64,000 bases of DNA from Nocardioides nitrophenolicus. GTDB lineage: Bacteria > Actinomycetota > Actinomycetes > Propionibacteriales > Nocardioidaceae. The DNA lies in contig NZ_JAFBBY010000001.1 in NCBI RefSeq assembly GCF_016907515.1, positions 2,232,001 to 2,296,000 of the forward strand, written 5' to 3'. A program made the position numbers and the translations under genes. Shown piece by piece: positions 1 through 11,266 of this stretch. Below the pieces are notes generated by a model. It did not search any database and was not told where the DNA came from. It worked only from the letters and a program-made list of their open reading frames with translations. Position 1 is the first letter of the stretch. Each line of letters opens with the position of its first letter.

Positions 1-249
1 GTCGACCGCCGCGGCCAGCCGGTCGACCAGCGCGGACGCCGACGCCCAGGACCGATGGGTCGCGGCGTAGCCGACGAGCGCGTCATAGGTCGTGGCGTCG
101 GCGTGCAGCGACTGTCGTTGCTCCTGCTGGACCGCGACCGTCGTCGAGCGCACCGTGGCCCAGGTGGCCGCGACGACCGCCACCAGCGCGATCACCGCGC
201 CCAGCAGGAAGAGCCGGACGAACAGGGAGCGGTGCCACGGGACCCTCAC
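1..249 (-). CDS. Sensor histidine kinase, N-terminal part (cut by window edge)
   Basis: A GTG at 249 opens a frame that runs off the left edge without a stop (83 codons seen). The product starts with a short basic segment (VRVPWHRSLFVR) followed by one strong membrane helix (LFLLGAVIALVAVVAA) and then a polar region rich in Gln and Ser, as in the extracytoplasmic sensor part of membrane histidine kinases. It starts only 7 bp after the stop of the OmpR-type regulator on the same strand, the usual regulator-kinase order, so a kinase is inferred from context; the catalytic domains are outside the window. Confidence 0.75.
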   Translation of the reverse strand, partial: MRVPWHRSLFVRLFLLGAVIALVAVVAATWATVRSTTVAVQQEQRQSLHADATTYDALVGYAATHRSWASASALVDRLAAAVD

Positions 250-6064: not shown

Positions 6065-6081
6065 CAACAGTGGACAGCATC
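6065..6081 (+). repeat. 17-bp inverted repeat, left copy (edge of tRNA array)
   Basis: CAACAGTGGACAGCATC on the plus strand, identical to the minus-strand sequence at 9872-9888. The two copies face each other across the main tRNA array (6084-9780). The right copy is part of a leader-like element upstream of the array; the left copy lies 2 bp beyond the 3' end of the last tRNA. Confidence 0.8.
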
Positions 6082-6083
6082 GG

Positions 6084-6157
6084 TGGAAGCCCCTGCCGGA
6101 CTCGAACCGGCGTGACGCGGGTTGCAGCCGCGTGCCTAGCCACTCGGCCAAGGGGCC
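6084..6157 (-). tRNA. tRNA-Cys(GCA)
   Basis: Anticodon loop CTGCAAC gives GCA. Acceptor GGCCCCT/AGGGGCT (first pair G-U), T-arm GCCGG/CCGGC, discriminator U and encoded CCA. Last tRNA of the array in the direction of transcription, separated from the rest by the HNH gene. Confidence 0.93.
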
Positions 6158-6216
6158 ATCGGGTGGCGCGACCTGCCGTCGATTCGGGAGTTCGACTCGG
6201 CGGCAGGCCGCACCGG

Positions 6217-6666
6217 TCATGCGAGGGAGGCCAACTGCGCCCTGGTGGGGACGTACGGCTCGAAGCGGAGCCGCATCCCGGCCTCGGCGGGGGTTCGGTC
6301 GGCCTTGCGGTTGTTGCAGGGCTCGCAGGCCGCCACGATGTTCAGCCAGGACCATTGGCCGCCTCGCGATGCGGGGATCACGTGGTCGAGGGTGCGAGCC
6401 TTGGCGCCGCAGTAGGCGCAGCGGTGGCCGTCGCGGATGAAGACGCCGCCGCGGTGCCAGCCAGCTGGGCGGTAGAGCCACGTGGGGCTGATGTACCGCA
6501 GGAGCCGGATGACGCGTGGCCATGGCCAGGGGCCTGCGGTGCGGTCTTCGTCGGCTTCTTCGATGGCGGCGACCTTGCGGGCGACCATGCGGATGGCCTG
6601 CTTGAAGGAGACCTTGCCGAGGGGTTCGTAGGAGGCGTTGAGCAGCGCCACGGTTGTTGCGGTCAC
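6217..6666 (-). CDS. HNH endonuclease inside the tRNA array
   Basis: 149 residues from the GTG at 6666, which has GGGAGG about 8 bases upstream (a GTG at 6675 is too close to it). The N-terminal segment ALLNASYEPLGKVSFKQAI is typical of actinobacterial and phage HNH proteins. The nuclease core has the zinc pairs CAYCG and CEPCN and the catalytic stretch LDHVIPASRGG, with the asparagine of the HNH motif in the following SWLN. Such proteins cut or nick DNA; many are homing or phage packaging enzymes. Its place between tRNA-Cys and tRNA-Arg(CCG), on the same strand, suggests it travelled with the array. The nuclease family is clear, its target is not. Confidence 0.92.
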   Translation of the reverse strand: MTATTVALLNASYEPLGKVSFKQAIRMVARKVAAIEEADEDRTAGPWPWPRVIRLLRYISPTWLYRPAGWHRGGVFIRDGHRCAYCGAKARTLDHVIPASRGGQWSWLNIVAACEPCNNRKADRTPAEAGMRLRFEPYVPTRAQLASLA

Positions 6667-6722
6667 CGCTGACACCTCCCTTCTCGTCTATGTGGGTGGG
6701 CGGTGGGTGTGCCTGCGCGGCG

Positions 6723-6796
6723 TGGAGCCCCCGCCCAGAGTCGAACTGGGGCAGCCCGGCGTCGGAGGCCAGGTGACGGATTCCGCCGTCGAGGGC
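6723..6796 (-). tRNA. tRNA-Arg(CCG), unusual D-arm
   Basis: Loop CTCCGAC gives CCG. Acceptor GCCCTCG/CGGGGGC, T-arm CCCAG/CTGGG, CCA encoded. The D region lacks a normal GG-containing loop: the best pairing is GACGG/CCGTC around CGGAAT. Confidence 0.82.
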
Positions 6797-6798
6797 AG

Positions 6799-6873
6799 TG
6801 GAACGGGCGACCGGAGTCGAACCGGCTCGACCGGTATGGAAGACCGGCATGCAACCACCAACACCTCGCCCGC
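6799..6873 (-). tRNA. tRNA-Gly(TCC)
   Basis: Loop CTTCCAT between CCGGT and ACCGG gives TCC. Acceptor GCGGGCG/CGCCCGT, T-arm GCCGG/CCGGT, CCA encoded. Only 2 bp separate it from tRNA-Arg(CCG). Confidence 0.88.
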
Positions 6874-6885
6874 GCGGTGGATGAC

Positions 6886-6963
6886 TGGAGCCCCTGACAG
6901 GAATCGAACCCGCGAAATCCCGCTTACAAGGCGGACCCACCAGCCAACAGGTGGAACAGGGGC
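6886..6963 (-). tRNA. tRNA-Thr(TGT)
   Basis: Loop CTTGTAA gives TGT. Acceptor GCCCCTG/CAGGGGC, CCA encoded; D-arm CCAC/GGTGG; T-arm with one mismatch (GCGGG/CCTGT). Confidence 0.88.
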
Positions 6964-6965
6964 GG

Positions 6966-7047
6966 GGTGACCGACGGGAGTCGAACCCGCTTCGCCCTTC
7001 CGGGCCCAGGGCCACCACCTGGTGAGCCACCGTTGCTCATCGGTCAC
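6966..7047 (-). tRNA. tRNA-His(GTG)-like gene with a class II variable arm
   Basis: Acceptor GTGACCG/CGGTCAC followed by C73, the bacterial histidine discriminator, D-arm GAGC/GCTC, anticodon stem CCAGG/CCTGG and loop TGGTGGC, which places GTG at 34-36 but G instead of U at 33. A 15-nt variable region (GCCC GGAA GGGC GAA) forms a hairpin, as in Ser/Leu/Tyr tRNAs and unlike normal tRNA-His. No encoded CCA, and the base before position 1 is U, not G-1. It is the only His-type gene of the array. Confidence 0.6.
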
Positions 7048-7049
7048 AG

Positions 7050-7121
7050 CGCCCTCGCCAGGACTCGAACCTGGATTTCCGGCTTCGTAGGCCGGTGTCG
7101 TGTCCGTTGGACCACGAAGGC
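7050..7121 (-). tRNA. tRNA-Arg(ACG)
   Basis: Loop CTACGAA gives ACG. Acceptor GCCTTCG/CGAGGGC, T-arm CCAGG/CCTGG. No encoded CCA. Confidence 0.92.
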
Positions 7122-7193
7122 AGGTGGCTGCTCGGGGTTCCCCCTCGGCCACCCGGTGGTGACCCCGCACGCAGCCGGTGCGGTCGTACGTCG

Positions 7194-7556
7194 TCAGGCT
7201 GCGGCGACCTTCTTCGGCCGTCCGCGCTGCCGGACCTTCTCGACGGGCTTGCCGCCCTCCAGGAGCACACCGCCCCAGACGCCCCACTCGTCGCGGCTGG
7301 TGCCGAGCAGGAGGCAGAGCCCCCGTGCTTCGCAGCCGCCGCAGAAGTCCCGCGCGACGGCGAGGGCCTCGTCGTCGGCCGGGTCGAAGACCTCCGGGTC
7401 CTCGTGGTCGACGCACCGCCACTGGATCGTGGCCTCGCGGGGTGTCGGGTGGTCGTACGCCACGGTGACGCCCTTGGTGTTGAGGATGCTCTCCGCAGAG
7501 TCGACCGTCTGGGTGGTCGCCGTGGTGGGGCGCATCCGTCCGTTCCTGATCTCCAT
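7194..7556 (-). CDS. WhiB-like iron-sulfur transcription regulator inside the tRNA array
   Basis: 120 residues from an ATG at 7556 with GAGGAG 6 bases upstream. The four cluster-ligand cysteines are visible: Cys48 in WRCVDHED, the CGGC pair (72 and 75) and Cys81 in ARGLCLLLG, spaced as in Wbl proteins. The Wbl turn follows (DEWGVWGGV), then a basic tail RQRGRPKK that contacts DNA. Wbl proteins hold a 4Fe-4S cluster, bind sigma factor region 4 and are found only in Actinobacteria and their phages. It sits between tRNA-Arg(ACG) and tRNA-Arg(CCT) on the same strand. A regulator of the array or of its parent element is inferred, not shown. Confidence 0.93.
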   Translation of the reverse strand: MEIRNGRMRPTTATTQTVDSAESILNTKGVTVAYDHPTPREATIQWRCVDHEDPEVFDPADDEALAVARDFCGGCEARGLCLLLGTSRDEWGVWGGVLLEGGKPVEKVRQRGRPKKVAAA

Positions 7557-7636
7557 GTGCTCCTCACCTCCTCGGTCCGTTCAGCAGCACGTGGTCTGTG
7601 GGGGGGGCGGGACCCGTCCGGTCCGGCGTCGTGGAG

Positions 7637-7712
7637 TGGTGCCTCCGGCCGGACTCGAACCGGCAACCTCTCGGGTAGGAGCCGAGCGCTCTGTCCGTTG
7701 AGCCACGGAGGC
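7637..7712 (-). tRNA. tRNA-Arg(CCT)
   Basis: Loop CTCCTAC between CTCGG and CCGAG gives CCT. Acceptor GCCTCCG/CGGAGGC, T-arm GCCGG/CCGGC, A73 and CCA encoded. Confidence 0.95.
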
Positions 7713-7723
7713 ATGGGGATGGG

Positions 7724-7798
7724 TACTCCGCCTGGGACTCGAACCCAGATTCATGCCCGATGAAGAGTCGGGTGCACGGCCGATTGTGCGAGCGGAGC
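7724..7798 (-). tRNA. tRNA-Lys(CTT)
   Basis: Loop CTCTTCA between CCCGA and TCGGG gives CTT, with C at 37. Acceptor GCTCCGC/GCGGAGT, D-arm GCAC/GTGC, T-arm CTGGG/CCCAG. No encoded CCA. Confidence 0.85.
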
Positions 7799-7819
7799 AA
7801 GAGCCCTCGGAGGGGCCGG

Positions 7820-7887
7820 TAGCGGGGCCGCGAGTCGAACGCAGACCGACGGGCTTATGAGACCCATGGCGTCACCCGACACCCGCT
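7820..7887 (-). tRNA. tRNA-Met(CAT)-like gene, short and degenerate
   Basis: Loop CTCATAA gives CAT, stem pairs TGGGT/GCCCG use two wobbles. Acceptor AGCGGGT/CCCCGCT has one mismatch. The total length is only about 68 nt because the D-arm is reduced to a stub. Could also be an Ile2-type (lysidine) tRNA or a decayed copy. Confidence 0.55.
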
Positions 7888-7915
7888 TCGTACGACGCGG
7901 CAACCCGCGTCGACG

Positions 7916-7991
7916 TGGCTGCGTGGGTAGGAATCGAACCTACGAGGGCGTGGTTCAGAGCCACGCTGGCCTTCCAACAGACCACCACGCA
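7916..7991 (-). tRNA. tRNA-Gln(CTG)
   Basis: Loop CTCTGAA between CGTGG and CCACG gives CTG. Acceptor TGCGTGG/CCACGCA, T-arm GTAGG/CCTAC, G73 and CCA encoded. Confidence 0.94.
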
Positions 7992-7999
7992 TCGTTGCG

Positions 8000-8071
8000 C
8001 TCCCCGACCAGGACTCGAACCTGGAACCGTCGTCTTAACAGGACGCTGCGCTGCCATTGCGCCACCGAGGA
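8000..8071 (-). tRNA. tRNA-Asn(GTT)
   Basis: Loop CTGTTAA gives GTT. Acceptor TCCTCGG/TCGGGGA, G73, T-arm CCAGG/CCTGG. No encoded CCA. Confidence 0.92.
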
Positions 8072-8097
8072 ATGACCGCCCGCACCGGGCGGGTATC

Positions 8098-8172
8098 TGG
8101 TGCCTCCGGCAGGTGTCGAACCCGCGCAGGTCCGCTGAGAAGGCGGGTGCCCATCCAGTAGGCGACGGAGGC
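8098..8172 (-). tRNA. tRNA-Arg(TCT)
   Basis: Loop CTTCTCA gives TCT. Acceptor GCCTCCG/CGGAGGC identical to tRNA-Arg(CCT) of the array; CCA encoded. The T-arm GCGGG/CCTGC has one mismatch. Confidence 0.88.
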
Positions 8173-8186
8173 AGGGGGGCCGGGGC

Positions 8187-8263
8187 TGGTGCTCCGCCTG
8201 GGACTCGAACCCAGATCCATGCCCGGGTAAAAGCCGGGTGCACGCCGATTGTGCGAGCGGAGC
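8187..8263 (-). tRNA. tRNA-Lys(TTT)
   Basis: Loop CTTTTAC between CCCGG and CCGGG gives TTT. Acceptor GCTCCGC/GCGGAGC; body closely similar to tRNA-Lys(CTT) at 7724, so the two probably arose by duplication. CCA encoded. Confidence 0.94.
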
Positions 8264-8269
8264 GAGAGG

Positions 8270-8342
8270 CCCCCAGGGCAGGACTCGAACCTGCGTCGAC
8301 CGGATTCAAAGTCCGGCTGCCCAGCCTCCAGAGCACCTGGGG
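8270..8342 (-). tRNA. tRNA-Gln(TTG)
   Basis: Loop CTTTGAA between CCGGA and TCCGG gives TTG. Acceptor CCCCAGG/CCTGGGG, T-arm GCAGG/CCTGC, G73. No encoded CCA. Confidence 0.93.
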
Positions 8343-8370
8343 TCACCGACACCCGAGCGGGGTGTCGCGG

Positions 8371-8443
8371 TGGGACCGGCTGGGATCGAACCAGCGACCT
8401 CCCGGGCTTCAACCGGGCGCACAACCTGCTGTGCTTCGGCCCC
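8371..8443 (-). tRNA. tRNA-Phe(GAA)
   Basis: Loop TTGAAGC between CCCGG and CCGGG gives GAA. Acceptor GGGGCCG/CGGTCCC, T-arm GCTGG/CCAGC, A73. No encoded CCA. Confidence 0.92.
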
Positions 8444-8456
8444 ATGAAGGGGAAGT

Positions 8457-8532
8457 TGGTCGGCCTGGAGGGACTCGAACCCCCGCACGTACGGTGTGTA
8501 AGACCGCTGCTCTGCCGCTGAGCCACAGGCCG
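8457..8532 (-). tRNA. tRNA-Val(TAC)
   Basis: Loop CTTACAC gives TAC. Acceptor CGGCCTG/CAGGCCG, A73 and CCA encoded. Confidence 0.93.
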
Positions 8533-8568
8533 GTGACCGGCCCGACCAGAGTGGTTGGACTGGATCGG

Positions 8569-8641
8569 TCGGAATGGTCGGGCTCGAACCGACGACCTCG
8601 GGGTCCCGGACCCCGCGCGCTTCCTGCTGCGCCACATTCCG
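8569..8641 (-). tRNA. tRNA-Pro(CGG), C33
   Basis: Stem CGGGG/CCCCG with loop TCCGGGA gives CGG, but position 33 is C where nearly all tRNAs have U. Acceptor CGGAATG/CATTCCG. No encoded CCA. Confidence 0.88.
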
Positions 8642-8642
8642 T

Positions 8643-8720
8643 TGGTCGACCAGGGAGGATTTGAACCTCCGACCGCCTCGTTATCAGCGAGGTGCCCACA
8701 CCGGACCGGGCTCCTGGTCG
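8643..8720 (-). tRNA. tRNA-Ile(GAT)
   Basis: Loop CTGATAA between CCTCG and CGAGG gives GAT. Acceptor CGACCAG/CTGGTCG, CCA encoded. T-loop TTCAAAT differs from the TTCGANT of its neighbours. Only 1 bp from tRNA-Pro(CGG). Confidence 0.94.
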
Positions 8721-8721
8721 T

Positions 8722-8796
8722 TGGTCGGAATGGTCGGGCTCGAACCGACGACCTCTCGGTCCCCGACCGAGTGCGCTACCGCTGCGCCACATCCCG
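8722..8796 (-). tRNA. tRNA-Pro(GGG), C33
   Basis: Stem CTCGG/CCGAG with loop TCGGGGA gives GGG; position 33 is C. Acceptor CGGGATG/CATTCCG, CCA encoded. The 3' half is nearly identical to tRNA-Pro(CGG). Confidence 0.9.
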
Positions 8797-8797
8797 A

Positions 8798-8873
8798 TGG
8801 TCGGTGCGGCCGGGCTCGAACCGGCGTCCTCCCGGTCCCAGGCCGGGCGCGCTTCCTGCTGCGCTACGCACCG
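8798..8873 (-). tRNA. tRNA-Pro(TGG), C33
   Basis: Stem CCCGG/CCGGG with loop CCTGGGA gives TGG; position 33 is C. Acceptor CGGTGCG/CGCACCG, CCA encoded. Confidence 0.9.
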
Positions 8874-8874
8874 T

Positions 8875-8962
8875 TGGTACCCACCCCCGGACTCGAACCG
8901 GGACGCCCCGAGGGGCACCAGGACCTGAGCCTGGCGCGTCTACCTGGTTCCGCCAGGCGGGC
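8875..8962 (-). tRNA. tRNA-Leu(CAG)
   Basis: Class II tRNA. Stem CCAGG/CCTGG with loop CTCAGGT gives CAG. Variable arm TGCCCCTCGGGGCG, acceptor GCCCGCC/GGTGGGT, CCA encoded. Confidence 0.93.
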
Positions 8963-8976
8963 ATGCTTCTACTGCG

Positions 8977-9048
8977 AGCAGACGGCGGGGATCGAACCCG
9001 CTCCTCCGGCATGGCAAGCCGGTGTGCTGCCAGGTGCACCTCGTCCGC
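8977..9048 (-). tRNA. tRNA-Gly(GCC)
   Basis: Loop TTGCCAT between CCGGC and GCCGG gives GCC. Acceptor GCGGACG/CGTCTGC, D-arm GTGC/GCAC, U73. No encoded CCA. Confidence 0.92.
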
Positions 9049-9079
9049 GAACCCCGGGTTGGCCGCCGGGTCGGCTGGG

Positions 9080-9151
9080 TGGAGACCGTCGGAATCGAAC
9101 CGACCGCACGGACCGTGCAAAGGTCTGTCGCCCCCTTGGAACATGGGCCCC
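9080..9151 (-). tRNA. tRNA-Ala(TGC)
   Basis: Loop TTTGCAC gives TGC. Acceptor GGGGCCC/GGTCTCC carries one mismatch, the first anticodon-stem pair is A-C, and the D-arm pairs poorly, so activity is doubtful. No encoded CCA. Confidence 0.75.
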
Positions 9152-9180
9152 CGCGTGGTCCTCACGTGGACCAGTCGTCG

Positions 9181-9266
9181 TACCCACCGAGGGAGTCGAA
9201 CCCTCACGCGCGCGTGGCGCACACGGCTCTCAACCGTGCCTGTCTACCTGGTTCCAGCAGGTGGGT
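9181..9266 (-). tRNA. tRNA-Leu(GAG)
   Basis: Class II tRNA. Stem CACGG/CCGTG with loop TTGAGAG gives GAG. Acceptor ACCCACC/GGTGGGT. No encoded CCA. Confidence 0.92.
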
Positions 9267-9267
9267 G

Positions 9268-9361
9268 TGGTGCTCTCGGTGGGAGTCGAACCCACACGCC
9301 ACGAGGGCGCCGCTACTTGAGAATCCGTCAGGCTGCCACTACCTCATGGGGCGAGTCGAGC
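9268..9361 (-). tRNA. tRNA-Leu-like class II gene, probable anticodon CAA, damaged stems
   Basis: A class II body with T-arm GTGGG/CCCAC, variable arm around CGCC CTCG TGGCG and CCA encoded. The most Leu-like loop is CTCAAGT (anticodon CAA), but its stem GGATT/AGCGG has only two good pairs. The acceptor GCTCGAC/CGAGAGC pairs at only four positions; a register shifted by two gives GGTGCTC/GAGCACC. It shares its first base with tRNA-Glu. Confidence 0.55.
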
Positions 9362-9432
9362 ACCGTGGACGGGGATCGAACCCGCGCGGCCCGCTTTGAA
9401 AGAGCGGATGGGCAGCCAGCAGCCACCACGGC
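9361..9432 (-). tRNA. tRNA-Glu(TTC)
   Basis: Loop CTTTCAA between CCGCT and AGCGG gives TTC. Acceptor GCCGTGG/CCACGGT, G73. No encoded CCA. Confidence 0.92.
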
Positions 9433-9437
9433 AAGCG

Positions 9438-9509
9438 CGCTCCCGAGGAGAATCGAACTCGCGACCTTCCGCTCGACAGGCGGCAGCGCTGCCTCTGCGC
9501 CACGGGAGC
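9438..9509 (-). tRNA. tRNA-Asp(GTC)
   Basis: Loop CTGTCGA between CCGC and GCGG gives GTC. Acceptor GCTCCCG/CGGGAGC, G73; T-arm has one mismatch. No encoded CCA. Confidence 0.9.
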
Positions 9510-9515
9510 ATCGTG

Positions 9516-9600
9516 CGGAAGGCGGAGGAGTCGAACCCCATGGCCGTGGCCACGACCCAGGTAGCAAGCGGGCACCGGGACCTCCCCTGCGTCACCTTCC
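9516..9600 (-). tRNA. tRNA-Ser(GCT)
   Basis: Class II tRNA. Loop TTGCTAC gives GCT, with a C-C mismatch closing the loop (CCCGC/CTGGG). Variable arm TGGCC AC GGCCA, acceptor GGAAGGT/GCCTTCC, G73. Confidence 0.82.
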
Positions 9601-9605
9601 ATCTG

Positions 9606-9693
9606 CGGAGGAGGCGAGGATCGAACTCGCACGCCCCGTAGGGCCTTCCGTTTTCGAGACGGCTGCCGTCGCCTGCCATCGGCTGGCTCCTCC
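9606..9693 (-). tRNA. tRNA-Ser(CGA)
   Basis: Class II tRNA. Loop CTCGAAA between CCGT and ACGG gives CGA. Acceptor GGAGGAG/CTCCTCC, T-arm GCGAG/CTCGC, G73. Confidence 0.92.
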
Positions 9694-9698
9694 ATGCG

Positions 9699-9780
9699 TG
9701 CGCCGGGCAGGACTCGAACCTGCGATGCCCGAAGGCGACGGGGTTACAACCCGCTGCAATAGCCGCTATGCGACCGACGC
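9699..9780 (-). tRNA. tRNA-Tyr(GTA)
   Basis: Class II tRNA. Stem GCGGG/CCCGT with loop TTGTAAC gives GTA. Acceptor GCGTCGG/CCGGCGC, A73. First tRNA of the contiguous array. Confidence 0.92.
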
Positions 9781-9871
9781 GTGTGCCGCAGCGCTTGGCC
9801 CCACGACGTCTCCGCCGTGGTCGCTGCGGCGGCAGGACGCCGCTCCCCGAGCTGGGGTCCGGCTCCTGCCT

Positions 9872-9895
9872 GATGCTGTCCACTGTTGAGTTCGC
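9872..9895 (-). promoter_or_regulatory. BoxA-like leader element upstream of the array (right copy of 17-bp repeat)
   Basis: On the minus strand this reads GAACTCAACAG followed by TGGACAGCATC. GAACTCAACAG-type sequences are common in actinobacterial stable-RNA leaders, where they act as antitermination or processing signals (established for rRNA leaders; inferred here). A related copy (ACTCAACAGCAGCATC) precedes tRNA-Trp at 10110-10127. The 254-bp stretch 9781-10034 around it has no gene. Its only other feature is a minus-strand hairpin CCCCGCC/GGTGGGG with loop GAAC at about 9904-9921, which could terminate the tRNA-Trp transcript. Confidence 0.5.
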
Positions 9896-10034
9896 CCCCA
9901 CTCCCCACCGTTCGGCGGGGTCTGGGTCGGGATCGGCTTCCCACGGCCCTTCGACCGTTAGCCCGGTGCCTCGATGCGGCCAGACCTCTCGGCCTGGTCG
10001 CGGGTCCGGTGCCCGTGGGACCTTCCACGATTCG

Positions 10035-10107
10035 CATGGGCGGAGGGACTCGAACCCCCAGCCGCCGGTTTTGGAGACCGGTGCGCTACCAGTTGCGCTA
10101 CGCCCAT
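10035..10107 (-). tRNA. tRNA-Trp(CCA)
   Basis: Loop CTCCAAA between CCGGT and ACCGG gives CCA. Acceptor ATGGGCG/CGCCCAT, G73. Stands alone 254 bp upstream of the contiguous array and has its own leader-like element. Confidence 0.93.
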
Positions 10108-10151
10108 TCGATGCTGCTGTTGAGTTGTCGCGACTACCCCTGACATGACGA

Positions 10152-10196
10152 AAGGGCCGCTCCTGCGAGACGTCTGCCTCGGCTGGAGCGGCCCTT
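10152..10196 (-). terminator. Strong hairpin terminator
   Basis: A perfect 12-bp stem (AAGGGCCGCTCC / GGAGCGGCCCTT) with a 21-nt loop, followed on the minus strand by TTTCGTC. It lies 29 bp after the stop of the 65-residue gene and before tRNA-Trp. Hairpins of this AAAGGGCC/GGCCCTTT style are common in actinophage genomes. Confidence 0.8.
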
Positions 10197-10225
10197 CCCG
10201 TGTCTGGGTCTGGGTGCTGGTGCAC

Positions 10226-10423
10226 TCAGGTCACGGGCGGCTCCAGGCGCTCCGACGGCAGCCACTGGTGGCCATTGGTCGACTCGATACCGAAGGTGGC
10301 GACAGGTCGCTTCGCGACCTTCAGCTCGACGGACGTCACGGAGGCAGCACACATCGCACGATCCGCGTTCCCGCGGACCGTGACACTGAGGCTGCGATAC
10401 CTGCGCACGTTCCCGTCCTTCAT
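10226..10423 (-). CDS. Small 65-residue protein, possibly phage-derived
   Basis: 65 residues starting MKDGNVRRYRSLSVTV. Third codon positions are mostly G or C, a GAGGG lies 10 bases before the ATG, and a strong terminator follows the stop; together these support a real gene. The sequence is mixed in charge with no membrane segment and ends in HQWLPSERLEPPVT. I do not recognise the family. Position next to the tRNA array, size and terminator style suggest a remnant of the mobile element that delivered the array. Confidence 0.55.
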   Translation of the reverse strand: MKDGNVRRYRSLSVTVRGNADRAMCAASVTSVELKVAKRPVATFGIESTNGHQWLPSERLEPPVT

Positions 10424-11154
10424 CTCCGCCGAGCCCTCATGGCCCGTTCACCATCAACGATAGAGAACCCCACCGAAACGGCCTAACGACTTTTCGTGCG
10501 CATCCAGCTGTGTCCCACGAGCCGACGAGGGAGGCTGGTTGAGCGGCCCCGCCAGGGTCTGTCCCGCGAGCCCAAACTTGTCGGCACCACCGAGCGGAGT
10601 GCACCCGGTCTCGGGCACCGGAGCCGGGCGTGCCAAGGCCGCGATCAAGTACGCCGAGGGAGACCACCGGGCGATCCTCTACCCGACCCAGCACTGTTAG
10701 TGCGGACGATGGCAACAGCGTTCGACGCCGCCGTCGACCTCGCGCATGTCATCGAGCGGCTGGAGTCCACCGCCATCGCCGGGAATCCGACAGGTCCCCG
10801 GCATCAACCCGTGGGTCACCCCAGTCTCGGGTTGATCAGGCGGGTGAGGGCTGAGGGCTGACTGGTGGCCAGCGAGGGTCTGGAGCGAGACGGGCCCGAC
10901 GGGCCGCCCACGTCGCTGGCCCTCCTCGGGAACTTGGGATTCTTCGCGTCGGCGCTTCATCCAGAGGGCGCCTTTCCGCTACTCGATTTCTCTCCTGCCC
11001 CCGTGGATGCCCCTTCGTGGGTCTCGCCCGGTTGGCGAGGCCGCTTGCGTGTTGCTCCGACGACAGGAGTGTGGCGCGCAGGTGGGTCAGATGACGGTGG
11101 GAGATCGGCGCGAGTGATCGGCGCACTGGCGAGCTAGCGATGCTAGAGATGCCG
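10424..11154. other. 731-bp gene-poor stretch between the array and tRNA-Thr
   Basis: No convincing gene. A plus-strand fragment at 10591-10698 (GTG CAC ... TAG) reads like coding sequence (GRAKAAIKYAEGDHRAILYP) but has no start region or RBS. Another at about 10700-10800 (FDAAVDLAHVIERLESTAIA) is also protein-like. These look like broken pieces of former genes, as expected at a decayed integration site beside a tRNA gene. A possible minus-strand promoter for the 65-residue gene (TTAGGC, 18 bp, TATCGT) lies near 10464-10493. Confidence 0.45.
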
Positions 11155-11190: not shown

Positions 11191-11266
11191 TGGAGCCGCC
11201 TGTCGGAATCGAACCGACGACCTAATCATTACGAGTGATTCGCTCTACCGACTGAGCTAAGGCGGC
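11191..11266 (-). tRNA. tRNA-Thr(CGT), canonical housekeeping copy
   Basis: Loop CTCGTAA between AATCA and TGATT gives CGT. Acceptor GCCGCCT/AGGCGGC, D-arm GCTC/GAGC, T-arm GTCGG/CCGAC, CCA encoded. All conserved bases are in place, in contrast to several array tRNAs. It has its own terminator. Confidence 0.97.

Follow-up and report, generated by a model that had tools for sequence, protein, structure and literature searches.

A whiB7-type leader points to an inducible backup role for a redundant tRNA array in Nocardioides

Introduction

A close described counterpart is the trn operon of Anabaena PCC 7120, a 26-tRNA array beside the housekeeping set that is reported to be silent in growth, to be induced by translation-targeting antibiotics, and to be derepressed together with rtcB and two HNH genes in a trcR mutant (PMC10272220). 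In mycobacteria, the tRNA array units G1-G5 (≥20 tRNAs, ≥2 per kb) often have an HNH gene inside and show isotype redundancy; no WhiB, leader or attenuator is named in the parts of that report available to us (PMC5966550). Separately, the whiB7/wblC attenuator is described as a GAAAWY box 3 nt before the -35, attenuation through a uORF and an AT-hook WhiB protein (PMC7157823, PMC10287673). The WblC regulon is reported to include six tRNA genes (PMC7157823), and upon VapC5 cleavage of tRNA-Ser whiB7 was the most induced transcript (PMC10287673).

Here we describe a tRNA array from Nocardioides nitrophenolicus, within a stretch of 64,000 nucleotides (the window). Like the Anabaena operon, as described in the excerpts consulted, it is a redundant array; an HNH gene lies inside it, related leaders stand at rtcB in a few other genomes, and a relative of the window HNH protein (38.6% identity) is encoded on a Nostoc plasmid directly before a 24-tRNA array. 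The phyla differ, however, and so does the regulator, the RHH repressor TrcR in Anabaena and a WhiB with a uORF attenuator in Nocardioides, where the leader itself precedes WhiB, HNH and tRNA genes. The array leader has the GAAAWY box, predicted uORF attenuation and AT-hook WhiB in common with the whiB7/wblC system as published in the sections seen, but the genes that it precedes are those of a 4-kb tRNA array and not of resistance, and the leader peptides differ. Of mobile arrays, that of Microbacterium phage Cece (33 tRNAs by ARAGORN in the stretch examined, same HNH family, adjoining RNA ligases) differs in tRNA order and spacing, and two plasmid arrays differ in tRNA order; all three are without AACTCAA[CT]AG.

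The array and its protein genes

Between 6084 and 10107 ARAGORN called 28 tRNA genes, every one of them on the minus strand, at about 7 per kb, and these alone cover 20 of the 20 amino acids, bearing out an earlier note on this DNA. At 28 genes in 4.02 kb the locus falls within the definition of a tRNA array unit (PMC5966550, as far as available). Three further tRNA-like genes found by eye (Ser-GCT, Arg(CCG)-like and degenerate Leu(CAA)-like) give the 31 on one strand that the note had counted in 4 kb. Rfam at gathering score found 19 tRNAs across the window, 18 of them inside the array, and a permissive scan of 5.4-12 kb added weaker ones. The genes are listed 5' to 3' along the minus strand, called by ARAGORN unless marked; the first, canonical and the 29th ARAGORN gene of the window, lies outside the array and looks like an ordinary host gene.

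11191..11266, minus, host tRNA-Thr (cgt), upstream of the cassette
10034..10107, minus, tRNA-Trp (cca)
9698..9780, minus, tRNA-Tyr (gta)
9605..9693, minus, tRNA-Ser (cga)
9516..9600, minus, tRNA-Ser (gct), by eye, no ARAGORN call
9437..9509, minus, tRNA-Asp (gtc)
9360..9432, minus, tRNA-Glu (ttc)
about 9268..9350, minus, degenerate tRNA-Leu(CAA)-like gene, 5' end uncertain, by eye
9180..9266, minus, tRNA-Leu (gag)
9078..9151, minus, tRNA-Ala (tgc), G3:U70 retained
8976..9048, minus, tRNA-Gly (gcc)
8875..8962, minus, tRNA-Leu (cag)
8798..8873, minus, tRNA-Pro (tgg), C33
8722..8796, minus, tRNA-Pro (ggg), C33
8643..8720, minus, tRNA-Ile (gat)
8567..8641, minus, tRNA-Pro (cgg), C33
8457..8532, minus, tRNA-Val (tac)
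8369..8443, minus, tRNA-Phe (gaa)
8268..8342, minus, tRNA-Gln (ttg)
8187..8263, minus, tRNA-Lys (ttt)
8098..8172, minus, tRNA-Arg (tct)
7999..8071, minus, tRNA-Asn (gtt)
7916..7991, minus, tRNA-Gln (ctg)
7818..7887, minus, tRNA-Met (cat), minimal D arm
7720..7799, minus, tRNA-Lys (ctt)
7637..7712, minus, tRNA-Arg (cct)
7194..7556, minus, WhiB protein, 120 aa, WhiB7-like (Pfam Whib 29.2 bits, cut-off 23.6)
7049..7121, minus, tRNA-Arg (acg)
6964..7047, minus, tRNA-His (gtg), long variable arm, G33
6886..6963, minus, tRNA-Thr (tgt)
6799..6873, minus, tRNA-Gly (tcc)
6723..6796, minus, tRNA-Arg(CCG)-like gene, by eye, no ARAGORN call
6217..6675, minus, HNH endonuclease, 152 aa (Pfam HNH_5 52.3 bits, above cut-off)
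6084..6157, minus, tRNA-Cys (gca)

The Ser-GCT gene has a counterpart of 86% identity in genome G042, and ARAGORN calls Arg(CCG) at the place corresponding to the Arg(CCG)-like gene in G237, just before HNH; the window gene has T73, unlike host Arg(CCG). The His, Met (70 nt) and third Leu genes are aberrant, as the note had said, while the two genes that it took to share a base do not do so in the ARAGORN coordinates, which set Thr and His end to end (6963/6964). C33, G33 and the missing U8 of some window tRNAs could mean decay, which counts against the backup operon proposed below.

The HNH and WhiB genes placed inside the array by the note both exceed their Pfam cut-offs. The WhiB protein has the four Cys and GVWGG (G[VI]WGG) of its family and a C-terminal AT-hook, RGRPKK. 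Its best PDB profile match is WhiB7 (E 1.7e-12, as against 1.9e-6 or weaker for other WhiB chains), which together with the RGRP AT-hook places it, as judged from sequence, in the WhiB7 subfamily; BLAST against four host WhiB proteins separated them less clearly, with a slightly better score for a paralogue other than WhiB7. In three genes of this WhiB family an in-frame stop is present.

A redundant and divergent tRNA set

Outside the array, 45 distinct tRNA genes occur in the host genome, a single contig of 5.8 Mb. Because all 28 anticodons (28/28) occur among them, the array is a redundant second set, near-complete as the note had proposed and not the sole tRNA set of the organism. It is also divergent: median identity between array and host genes of the same anticodon is 69%, and the anticodon loop is unlike the host's in 21 of 28. 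Discriminator bases agree in the 20 array/host pairs of one anticodon compared.

Stem pairing was counted across related loci, minus six misread or doubtful rows. Among 731 stem-pair cells, 626 were unchanged, 21 were changed on one side, 77 had changes on both sides that kept the pair, and 7 were broken; 500 shuffles gave a mean of 99 broken pairs (minimum 82) and 24 compensatory changes. This pattern confirms, at the level of sequence, that the array tRNA genes are not chance likenesses. Rescue of translation after tRNA cleavage, also suggested in the note, stays plausible since the array loops diverge like those reported for phage tRNAs, which are thought thereby to escape anticodon nucleases (PMC10264068, in the part available).

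A conserved leader precedes the array

Upstream of the array, outside 6084-10107, there is a conserved leader that the earlier note overlooked. Its features, and those of the rRNA-leader type that follow, are:

10457..10495, minus, WblC/WhiB7-type promoter, by match to the published S. coelicolor WblC consensus
10495-10490, minus, promoter box GAAAAG, then 3 nt
10486-10481, minus, promoter element TTAGGC, then 18-nt spacer
10462-10457, minus, promoter element TATCGT
10226..10423, minus, uORF, 65 aa, ...YRS...NADRAMCAA...LEPPVT*, by similar ORF ends and peptide similarity across loci
10235..10246, minus, antiterminator strand CTGGAGCCGCCC, end of uORF
10148..10197, minus, intrinsic terminator hairpin (attenuator), by fold energy and covariation
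10117..10126, minus, first copy of AACTCAACAG, rRNA-leader-like, just 5' of tRNA-Trp
9893..10020, minus, conserved stretch, probably structured, that separates tRNA-Trp from the main rRNA-leader-like element (3-locus alignment)
9871..9894, minus, main rRNA-leader-like element CGAACTCAACAGTGGACAGCATCA, by sequence common to rRNA leaders
6065..6081, plus, perfect inverted copy of 9872-9888

The window promoter scores 10/13 against the consensus, a score reached by 34 of 431 control windows (7.9%), so that the promoter evidence comes from the leader set and not from the window copy alone: 18 of 21 leaders score at least 11, compared with 6 of 431 ORF-upstream control windows. As a set, the leaders show the GAAAWY-N3-TKGM-16..19-TANNNT pattern of the WhiB7/WblC regulon. 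The host whiB7 promoter scores 11/13; in its leader, inspection by eye shows a uORF whose end lies near CCTGGAGCC, ahead of a terminator-like hairpin.

In 33 of 36 leaders the uORF stop has an offset of 17-22 relative to the start of the model, as against 3.0% of random windows. At the end of the uORF, 11 of the 12 positions of the antiterminator strand can pair with the 5' arm of the terminator; the predicted antiterminator fold of 10172-10250 (-35.7 kcal/mol, z -3.4) and the terminator hairpin (-41.1 kcal/mol, z -6.2) are mutually exclusive, as in a uORF-controlled attenuator. The covariation of the attenuator in 17 leaders was matched by 0 of 500 shuffles, and stems from the outer parts of the terminator because most stem pairs are invariant. 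Model R1 is also matched weakly by antisense strands and by a hairpin downstream of host whiB7.

Further downstream, GAACTCAACAGTG is common to the main rRNA-type element and both host rRNA leaders; the element would correspond to a boxC/NusA site, with putative NusA binding. It is present in most longer arrays and absent from the shortest. G100, G172, G237 and G477 lack it and G033 has it in altered form, which speaks against the proposed backup operon. In the adjoining, probably structured region both sides change in 4 of 52 predicted pairs. The inverted copy could close a 17-bp leader-trailer helix with 9872-9888, of which G056 retains 16 of 17 pairs, G-U included.

Distribution and genomic setting

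Related leaders lie upstream of ordered subsets of the array in other Nocardioides, a second genus and another family; random scatter of the genes in relatives, which the note had named among the refuting outcomes, is not seen. Several related arrays are cut down to few tRNAs, at the least to two, and locus L078 has WhiB and HNH without tRNAs; tRNA-Arg(ACG) is retained in 8 of 9 array loci compared. The leader stands upstream of 19 of 20 array-type WhiB genes, its attenuator directly upstream of HNH in five genomes, and it precedes some solo HNH genes and, in three genomes, the RNA ligase gene rtcB; in three genomes tRNA-Arg(ACG) is directly 5' of an interrupted or partial rtcB. Outside the model-building set, 12 of 14 family matches adjoin a tRNA, WhiB, HNH or rtcB gene, and two model matches (G202, G232) are without promoter, uORF or cassette gene. 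These counts are not independent because the leaders are related by descent. The model R2 leader was found at 0 of 30 scanned rtcB loci, the host's included, and at 0 of 11 other HNH loci; a stress-type promoter was present at 11 of 11 other HNH loci examined. The 10/13 score of the window promoter, the host rtcB without a leader, the reduced arrays, the shared descent of the leaders, the two bare model matches, the invariance of most terminator pairs, the weak R1 matches elsewhere and the WhiB genes with in-frame stops are points against a backup operon.

The note's proposal that a phage or conjugative element delivered the array finds no support here: no phage or conjugation genes occur among the neighbours scanned (about 6 kb to the left and 10 kb to the right of the array), and none of these genes is an integrase, structural or conjugation gene of the kind that would mark a prophage or integrative element. 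In a genome search confined to tyrosine integrases (PF00589) the nearest lay more than 1 Mb away, and no att-like repeats of ≥12 nt were found. The database search that the note recommended returned no 'phages' or 'plasmids' record covering 80% of the array, and a viral_contigs search found no relative of the array WhiB. G042 has its cassette downstream of the same tRNA-Thr gene, at whose 3' end homology with the window stops; in G000, G042, G172 and G237 no more than about 1.2 kb separates the cassette from the 3' end of a host-type tRNA.

Discussion

With a probability of roughly 0.68, we read the array as an inducible backup tRNA operon that stalled ribosomes or the loss of tRNA would release. 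This reading draws on what the sequence itself shows (a redundant array, compensatory stem changes, the promoter match, the uORF with its two exclusive folds, and conservation and linkage of the leader), together with the Anabaena, WblC and VapC5 precedents. The promoter would start a leader RNA carrying the uORF; in normal translation ribosomes would cover the uORF 3' end, so that the terminator forms and transcription stops. Ribosomes stalled in the uORF, the natural trigger being perhaps a drug, starvation or tRNA loss, would instead leave its 3' end to pair with the terminator 5' arm, allowing read-through. The rRNA-type element may then help RNA polymerase, by antitermination, along some 4 kb of RNA that is structured and for the most part untranslated; the divergent tRNAs, once charged, would refill the tRNA pool, and the operon's own WhiB would reinforce its promoter.

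Alternatively, the array could be a relic, born on a phage or plasmid, captured long ago and now decaying by deletion, with a leader that is baggage or serves WhiB and HNH only. The reduced loci, the aberrant His, Met and Leu(CAA) genes, and the arrays with the same HNH family on phage Cece and several plasmids would fit this, but compensatory changes far exceed broken pairs (77 to 7), discriminator bases and G3:U70 are kept, and the rRNA-type element persists in most longer arrays; we consider it unlikely. Decidedly less likely is a set that still serves a mobile element and, during infection or transfer, makes good host tRNAs cleaved by nucleases of the VapC, PrrC or colicin-D-like kind. The unlike anticodon loops, the phage-tRNA literature (PMC10264068 and PMC11555353, as far as available) and the position of the G042 cassette agree with it, whereas the distant tyrosine integrase, the lack of att-like repeats and of array-wide matches in 'phages' and 'plasmids', and a leader recurring at scattered genes of bacterial genomes do not. 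An HNH-driven homing element landing in tRNA genes, with the tRNAs as passengers, is very improbable. In its favour, no array gene is more widespread in mycobacteria than HNH (PMC5966550, in the part seen) and cassettes lie close to tRNA 3' ends, yet homing leaves unexplained the attenuator directly upstream of HNH, and other HNH loci have stress-type promoters. Codon supplementation in fast growth, free of stress control, is scarcely credible, for although all amino acids are covered, each ARAGORN-called anticodon is already in the host, and promoter and attenuator are of stress type.

A theme of replacement and repair would join the backup operon because the leader also precedes rtcB in a few genomes and RtcB mends cut tRNA. 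Rather tentatively, and at somewhat less than even odds when taken as a whole, the Nocardioidaceae, together with one or more further families of their order, may have a dedicated tRNA-damage response in which replacement tRNAs, RtcB and HNH come under the control of a WhiB7-like regulator and uORF attenuators that turn them on, each unit with its own leader. tRNA-Arg(ACG) would be central, tRNA loss would be sensed via the ribosome, and the response would be convergent with the cyanobacterial TrcR regulon.

The reason why bacteria keep up large redundant tRNA arrays has so far been unclear, and the control region suggests a specific answer: if it is true, the arrays stay silent until translation fails and are then released. 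The leaders, standing before tRNAs, a WhiB7-like regulator, HNH and sometimes an RNA ligase, hint at a programme of replacement and repair, and the occurrence of tRNA array, rtcB and HNH together in cyanobacteria, where the regulator is unrelated, suggests that it had more than one origin. Anticodon-nuclease attack, antibiotic stress and phage defence would then be joined in one circuit.

The tRNA array and its protein genes

The earlier note described a tRNA array that covers all 20 amino acids and contains HNH and WhiB genes, and this description holds. ARAGORN finds 28 tRNA genes between 6084 and 10107, on the - strand only, with 20/20 amino acids represented; three further tRNA-like genes (Ser-GCT, an Arg(CCG)-like gene and a degenerate Leu(CAA)-like gene) are recognised by eye. 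The Ser-GCT gene has a counterpart, 86% identical, in G042 (G-numbers denote relative genomes, L-numbers the loci or records compared), and G237 has an Arg(CCG) gene at the place corresponding to that of the Arg(CCG)-like gene. At the gathering score Rfam returns 18 array tRNAs together with the host tRNA-Thr at 11194-11266, and a permissive scan adds more. The genome is one contig of 5,815,017 bases. Two protein genes lie inside the array:

6217-6675, - strand (that of the array), HNH gene
7194-7556, - strand (that of the array), WhiB gene

The array WhiB has the same four cysteines, GVWGG and C-terminal RGRPKK hook as the host WhiB7. A profile of five array WhiBs has its best match to WhiB7 structures (E 1.7e-12), with other WhiB chains at 1.9e-6 or weaker; comparison of the array WhiB with four host WhiB proteins by BLAST was not decisive.

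Redundancy and structure of the array tRNAs

Beyond the array, the host genome contains 45 distinct tRNA genes with 43 anticodons, among which are 28/28 of the array anticodons. Array genes have a median identity of 69% (range 54-79%) to the host genes that share their anticodons, and the anticodon loop is the same as the host's in 7/28 array tRNAs. The redundancy of the array, together with these divergent anticodon loops, argues against codon supplementation and fits with replacement of damaged tRNAs.

The stems of the array tRNAs are almost intact (acceptor 6-7 pairs, anticodon stem 4-5, T stem 4-5, with Lys-CTT framed one base off in this check). The discriminator base is identical in 20/20 compared array/host pairs sharing an anticodon, and tRNA-Ala retains G3:U70. 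Several genes have U8 replaced, 3/3 tRNA-Pro genes (8567-8873) have C33 instead of U33, tRNA-His combines G33 with a long variable arm, and tRNA-Met (7818-7887) has a tiny D arm. This minimal D arm, which is unusual for a bacterial tRNA, is strongly conserved in the relatives L062, L063, L066 and L099, where it reads GUC-GGGA-GAC.

Stem pairs were compared for tRNAs that occur in two or more of nine loci, single-locus tRNAs being excluded. With six misread or doubtful rows removed, 626 of the 731 pair cells are unchanged, 21 differ on one side only, 77 differ on both sides and remain paired, and 7 are broken; shuffling the 3' letters of this set gives a mean of 99 broken pairs (minimum 82) and of 24 double changes (maximum 33). 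With all rows kept, the corresponding figures for 850 pair cells are 703, 26, 100 and 21, and some rows of the comparison may be replacements rather than descendants. As read from the sequences, this pattern bears the mark of selection for tRNA structure, which acted in the past if not today.

A leader with a probable promoter, a uORF and a predicted attenuator

Upstream of the first array tRNA, tRNA-Trp, and outside the stretch described in the earlier note, lies a leader that is common to the array loci and has diverged in G092 and G094. The published WblC consensus (GAAAWY, 3 nt, TKGM, 16-19 nt, TANNNT; PMC7157823) was picked after the leaders had already been inspected, and a promoter scored against it reaches at least 10 of 13 in 19/21 leaders and at least 11 in 18/21; the window's own scores 10. 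Among 431 control windows upstream of long ORFs, 34 score at least 10 and 6 at least 11, and among 4000 random windows 6.2% and 1.3% do so, the pool including leader loci. The two leaders that fail are those of G202 and G232; since these also have no uORF or cassette gene, their matches to R1, a covariance model of five leaders, were taken as false, and both were excluded from A8, from R2 (a second model, from 17 leaders) and from the uORF set of 36 leaders.

In those 36 leaders a uORF stop lies close to where the model match begins, at an offset of 17-22 in 33/36; in random windows an ORF ends within the wide range in 22.6% and at offset 17-22 in 3.0%, a test that is not fully independent, the first columns of the model containing the uORF end. 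An ADRAMCAA / AVRALGAA-type motif is common to many array and WhiB leader peptides of two genera, and many leader peptides have a terminal EPP(L/V) or similar string; the peptides of HNH and rtcB (RNA ligase) leaders differ from the array and WhiB ones. The Arg codon of the uORF was considered as a sensor of tRNA-Arg(ACG) and set aside as no more than suggestive: in the uORF motifs compared it is mostly CGT or CGC, with one CGG (G233).

The window's terminator is strong (-41.1 kcal/mol, z -6.2), and in an alternative fold its 5' arm pairs with the uORF end (11/12 pairs, -35.7 kcal/mol, z -3.4). Across 17 aligned leaders 93.1% of the attenuator cells are paired, compared with 86.7% after shuffling, and 11 pairs have both sides changed; the observed level is reached by 0/500 shuffles. 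Kinship inflates this test, most terminator stem pairs are invariant and the leaders had been aligned by fitting to the model. The host whiB7 leader was rejected as an RNA homologue. At the host whiB7 locus the R1 match lies downstream of the gene and nowhere else, so the likeness to the whiB7 leader is limited to the arrangement.

A further element resembles rRNA leaders. On both strands of the window plus six array loci (0.37 Mb), the motif AACTCAA[CT]AG occurs 6 times, always shortly before array tRNAs, compared with 4 times in a 1.18 Mb control; G042 has one additional copy, G100, G172, G237 and G477 have none, and G033 has one base altered. The leaders of both host rRNA operons and of the window's array contain GAACTCAACAGTG, which we take to be the NusA-binding boxC of rRNA operons, its letters not having been confirmed by the literature search. 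At the array end (6065-6081) the element recurs, inverted and without mismatch, and G056 keeps 16/17 of these pairs; the two could form an rRNA-like leader-trailer helix. The region between tRNA-Trp and this element (9893-10020, - strand; ~130-150 nt) is conserved, also in G033 and G056, and is probably structured; no convincing Rfam match was found for it.

Other genes behind the leader

R1 gave 19 matches in 18 of 341 family genomes, and 12/14 of those outside the model-building set adjoin a tRNA, array-type WhiB, HNH or rtcB gene. R2 matched 12 of 391 order genomes, 12/12 with neighbours of this kind; nine of them had already been used for the model, and the new ones are G015, G052 and G477. 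The leader stands upstream of 19/20 array-type WhiB genes found in the genus (the exception is G078; weakest E-value 0.0047), three of these 19 loci having served in building the models.

Directly before HNH the leader is found in G039, G114, G111, G015 and G052, and before rtcB the attenuator is found only in G111, G052 and G039. Neither gene is a general bearer of it: R2 matches 0/11 other examined HNH loci and 0/30 of the best rtcB loci, the host's included. A promoter scoring at least 10 is present at 11/11 of those HNH loci. It is also present at 26/30 rtcB upstreams, but over 400 nt against the control's 330, and with the palindrome GGAAATGCG..CGCATTTCC as a confounder; elsewhere in the genus, too, many rtcB genes (L181-L210) have a similar palindrome, probably an operator, near the promoter.

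In G192, G064 and G051 (L216, L218, L219) a tRNA-Arg(ACG) directly precedes an rtcB match that is partial or split, and the promoter there is array-like by eye. Split rtcB matches occur in L217, L218 and L220, where inteins or other insertions are possible. Solo HNH upstreams (L070, L071, L072, L074, L075, L076) have in common an untranslated stretch like GCCTTCGTGGCCGAACGGAAATACGG and a small hairpin, possibly a tRNA-Arg remnant.

Relatives and origin of the array

HNH relatives occur in 60/196 same-genus genomes. Array tRNAs adjoin HNH or WhiB in G100, G033, G056, G094 and G092, and G172 has a His-like tRNA remnant next to one of them. In G033 the array comprises seven tRNAs called by ARAGORN and has the leader. 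The array loci of G042 and G237 were found via the leader, as was that of G477, from another family, in which the leader is followed only by Trp, Phe, Gln-CTG and Met; HNH and WhiB were not found in this locus of ~3 kb. The tRNAs of the relative loci form ordered subsets of the window's order, as in G056 (Trp, Leu-GAG, Leu-CAG, Met, WhiB, Arg-ACG, His, Gly-TCC, HNH, Cys). The first array gene of G042 (L163 6762-6847) is Tyr-like, but its anticodon is GTC and its variable arm is long; it may be a missense tRNA or a pseudogene. Flanking genes are unlike between loci except for generic ABC/LysR matches and the pairs G092/G094 and window/G042; the latter have abhydrolase, LysR and tRNA-Thr(CGT) in common at 82-84% identity, until the 3' end of tRNA-Thr.

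Delivery by a phage or conjugative element, as previously suggested, was not borne out: no record in 'phages' or 'plasmids' covers 80% of the array (blastn with the array, tblastn with HNH). No att-like repeats of at least 12 nt were found at four tRNA borders, and no tyrosine integrase near the array. In viral_contigs there are six weak HNH relatives and no relative of the array WhiB. Of eight plasmid HNH relatives whose surroundings were inspected, six (L134, L135, L136, L238, L241 and L242, as against L239 and L240) lie in a stretch with 17-40 tRNAs, L134 and L135 having been preselected by also matching array DNA. In the small number of plasmid and phage arrays compared, the tRNA orders are unlike the window's, with no order in common with mycobacterial plasmids. 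RNA ligases are annotated in or beside tRNA arrays of a Variovorax plasmid (L242 3428-4489) and a Microbacterium phage (L137 11023-12096, 14365-15579).

Discussion

Mycobacterial tRNA arrays with HNH are already known (PMC5966550). In Anabaena, PMC10272220 describes a silent 26-tRNA operon, repressed by TrcR and induced by translation-targeting antibiotics, with derepression of rtcB and two HNH genes in a trcR mutant. In M. abscessus, according to PMC10287673, whiB7 is the most induced transcript upon VapC5 cleavage of tRNA-Ser(CGA). Literature searches for a tRNA array with WhiB or with Nocardioides, or for RtcB with WhiB7, returned nothing on the present arrangement, judged by title and abstract start and with subscription papers mostly outside coverage.

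A homing nuclease, a defence effector and an RNA-processing factor are all candidate identities for the HNH protein; a purely homing role is less likely because stress-type promoters recur at HNH.

From its sequence and that of its relatives, the array is probably an inducible backup operon, to which we give a probability of roughly 0.7. During normal growth attenuation would keep the operon off; ribosome stalling would release it, yielding spare tRNAs and more WhiB. More tentatively, and at somewhat less than even odds, there may be a wider tRNA-damage regulon.
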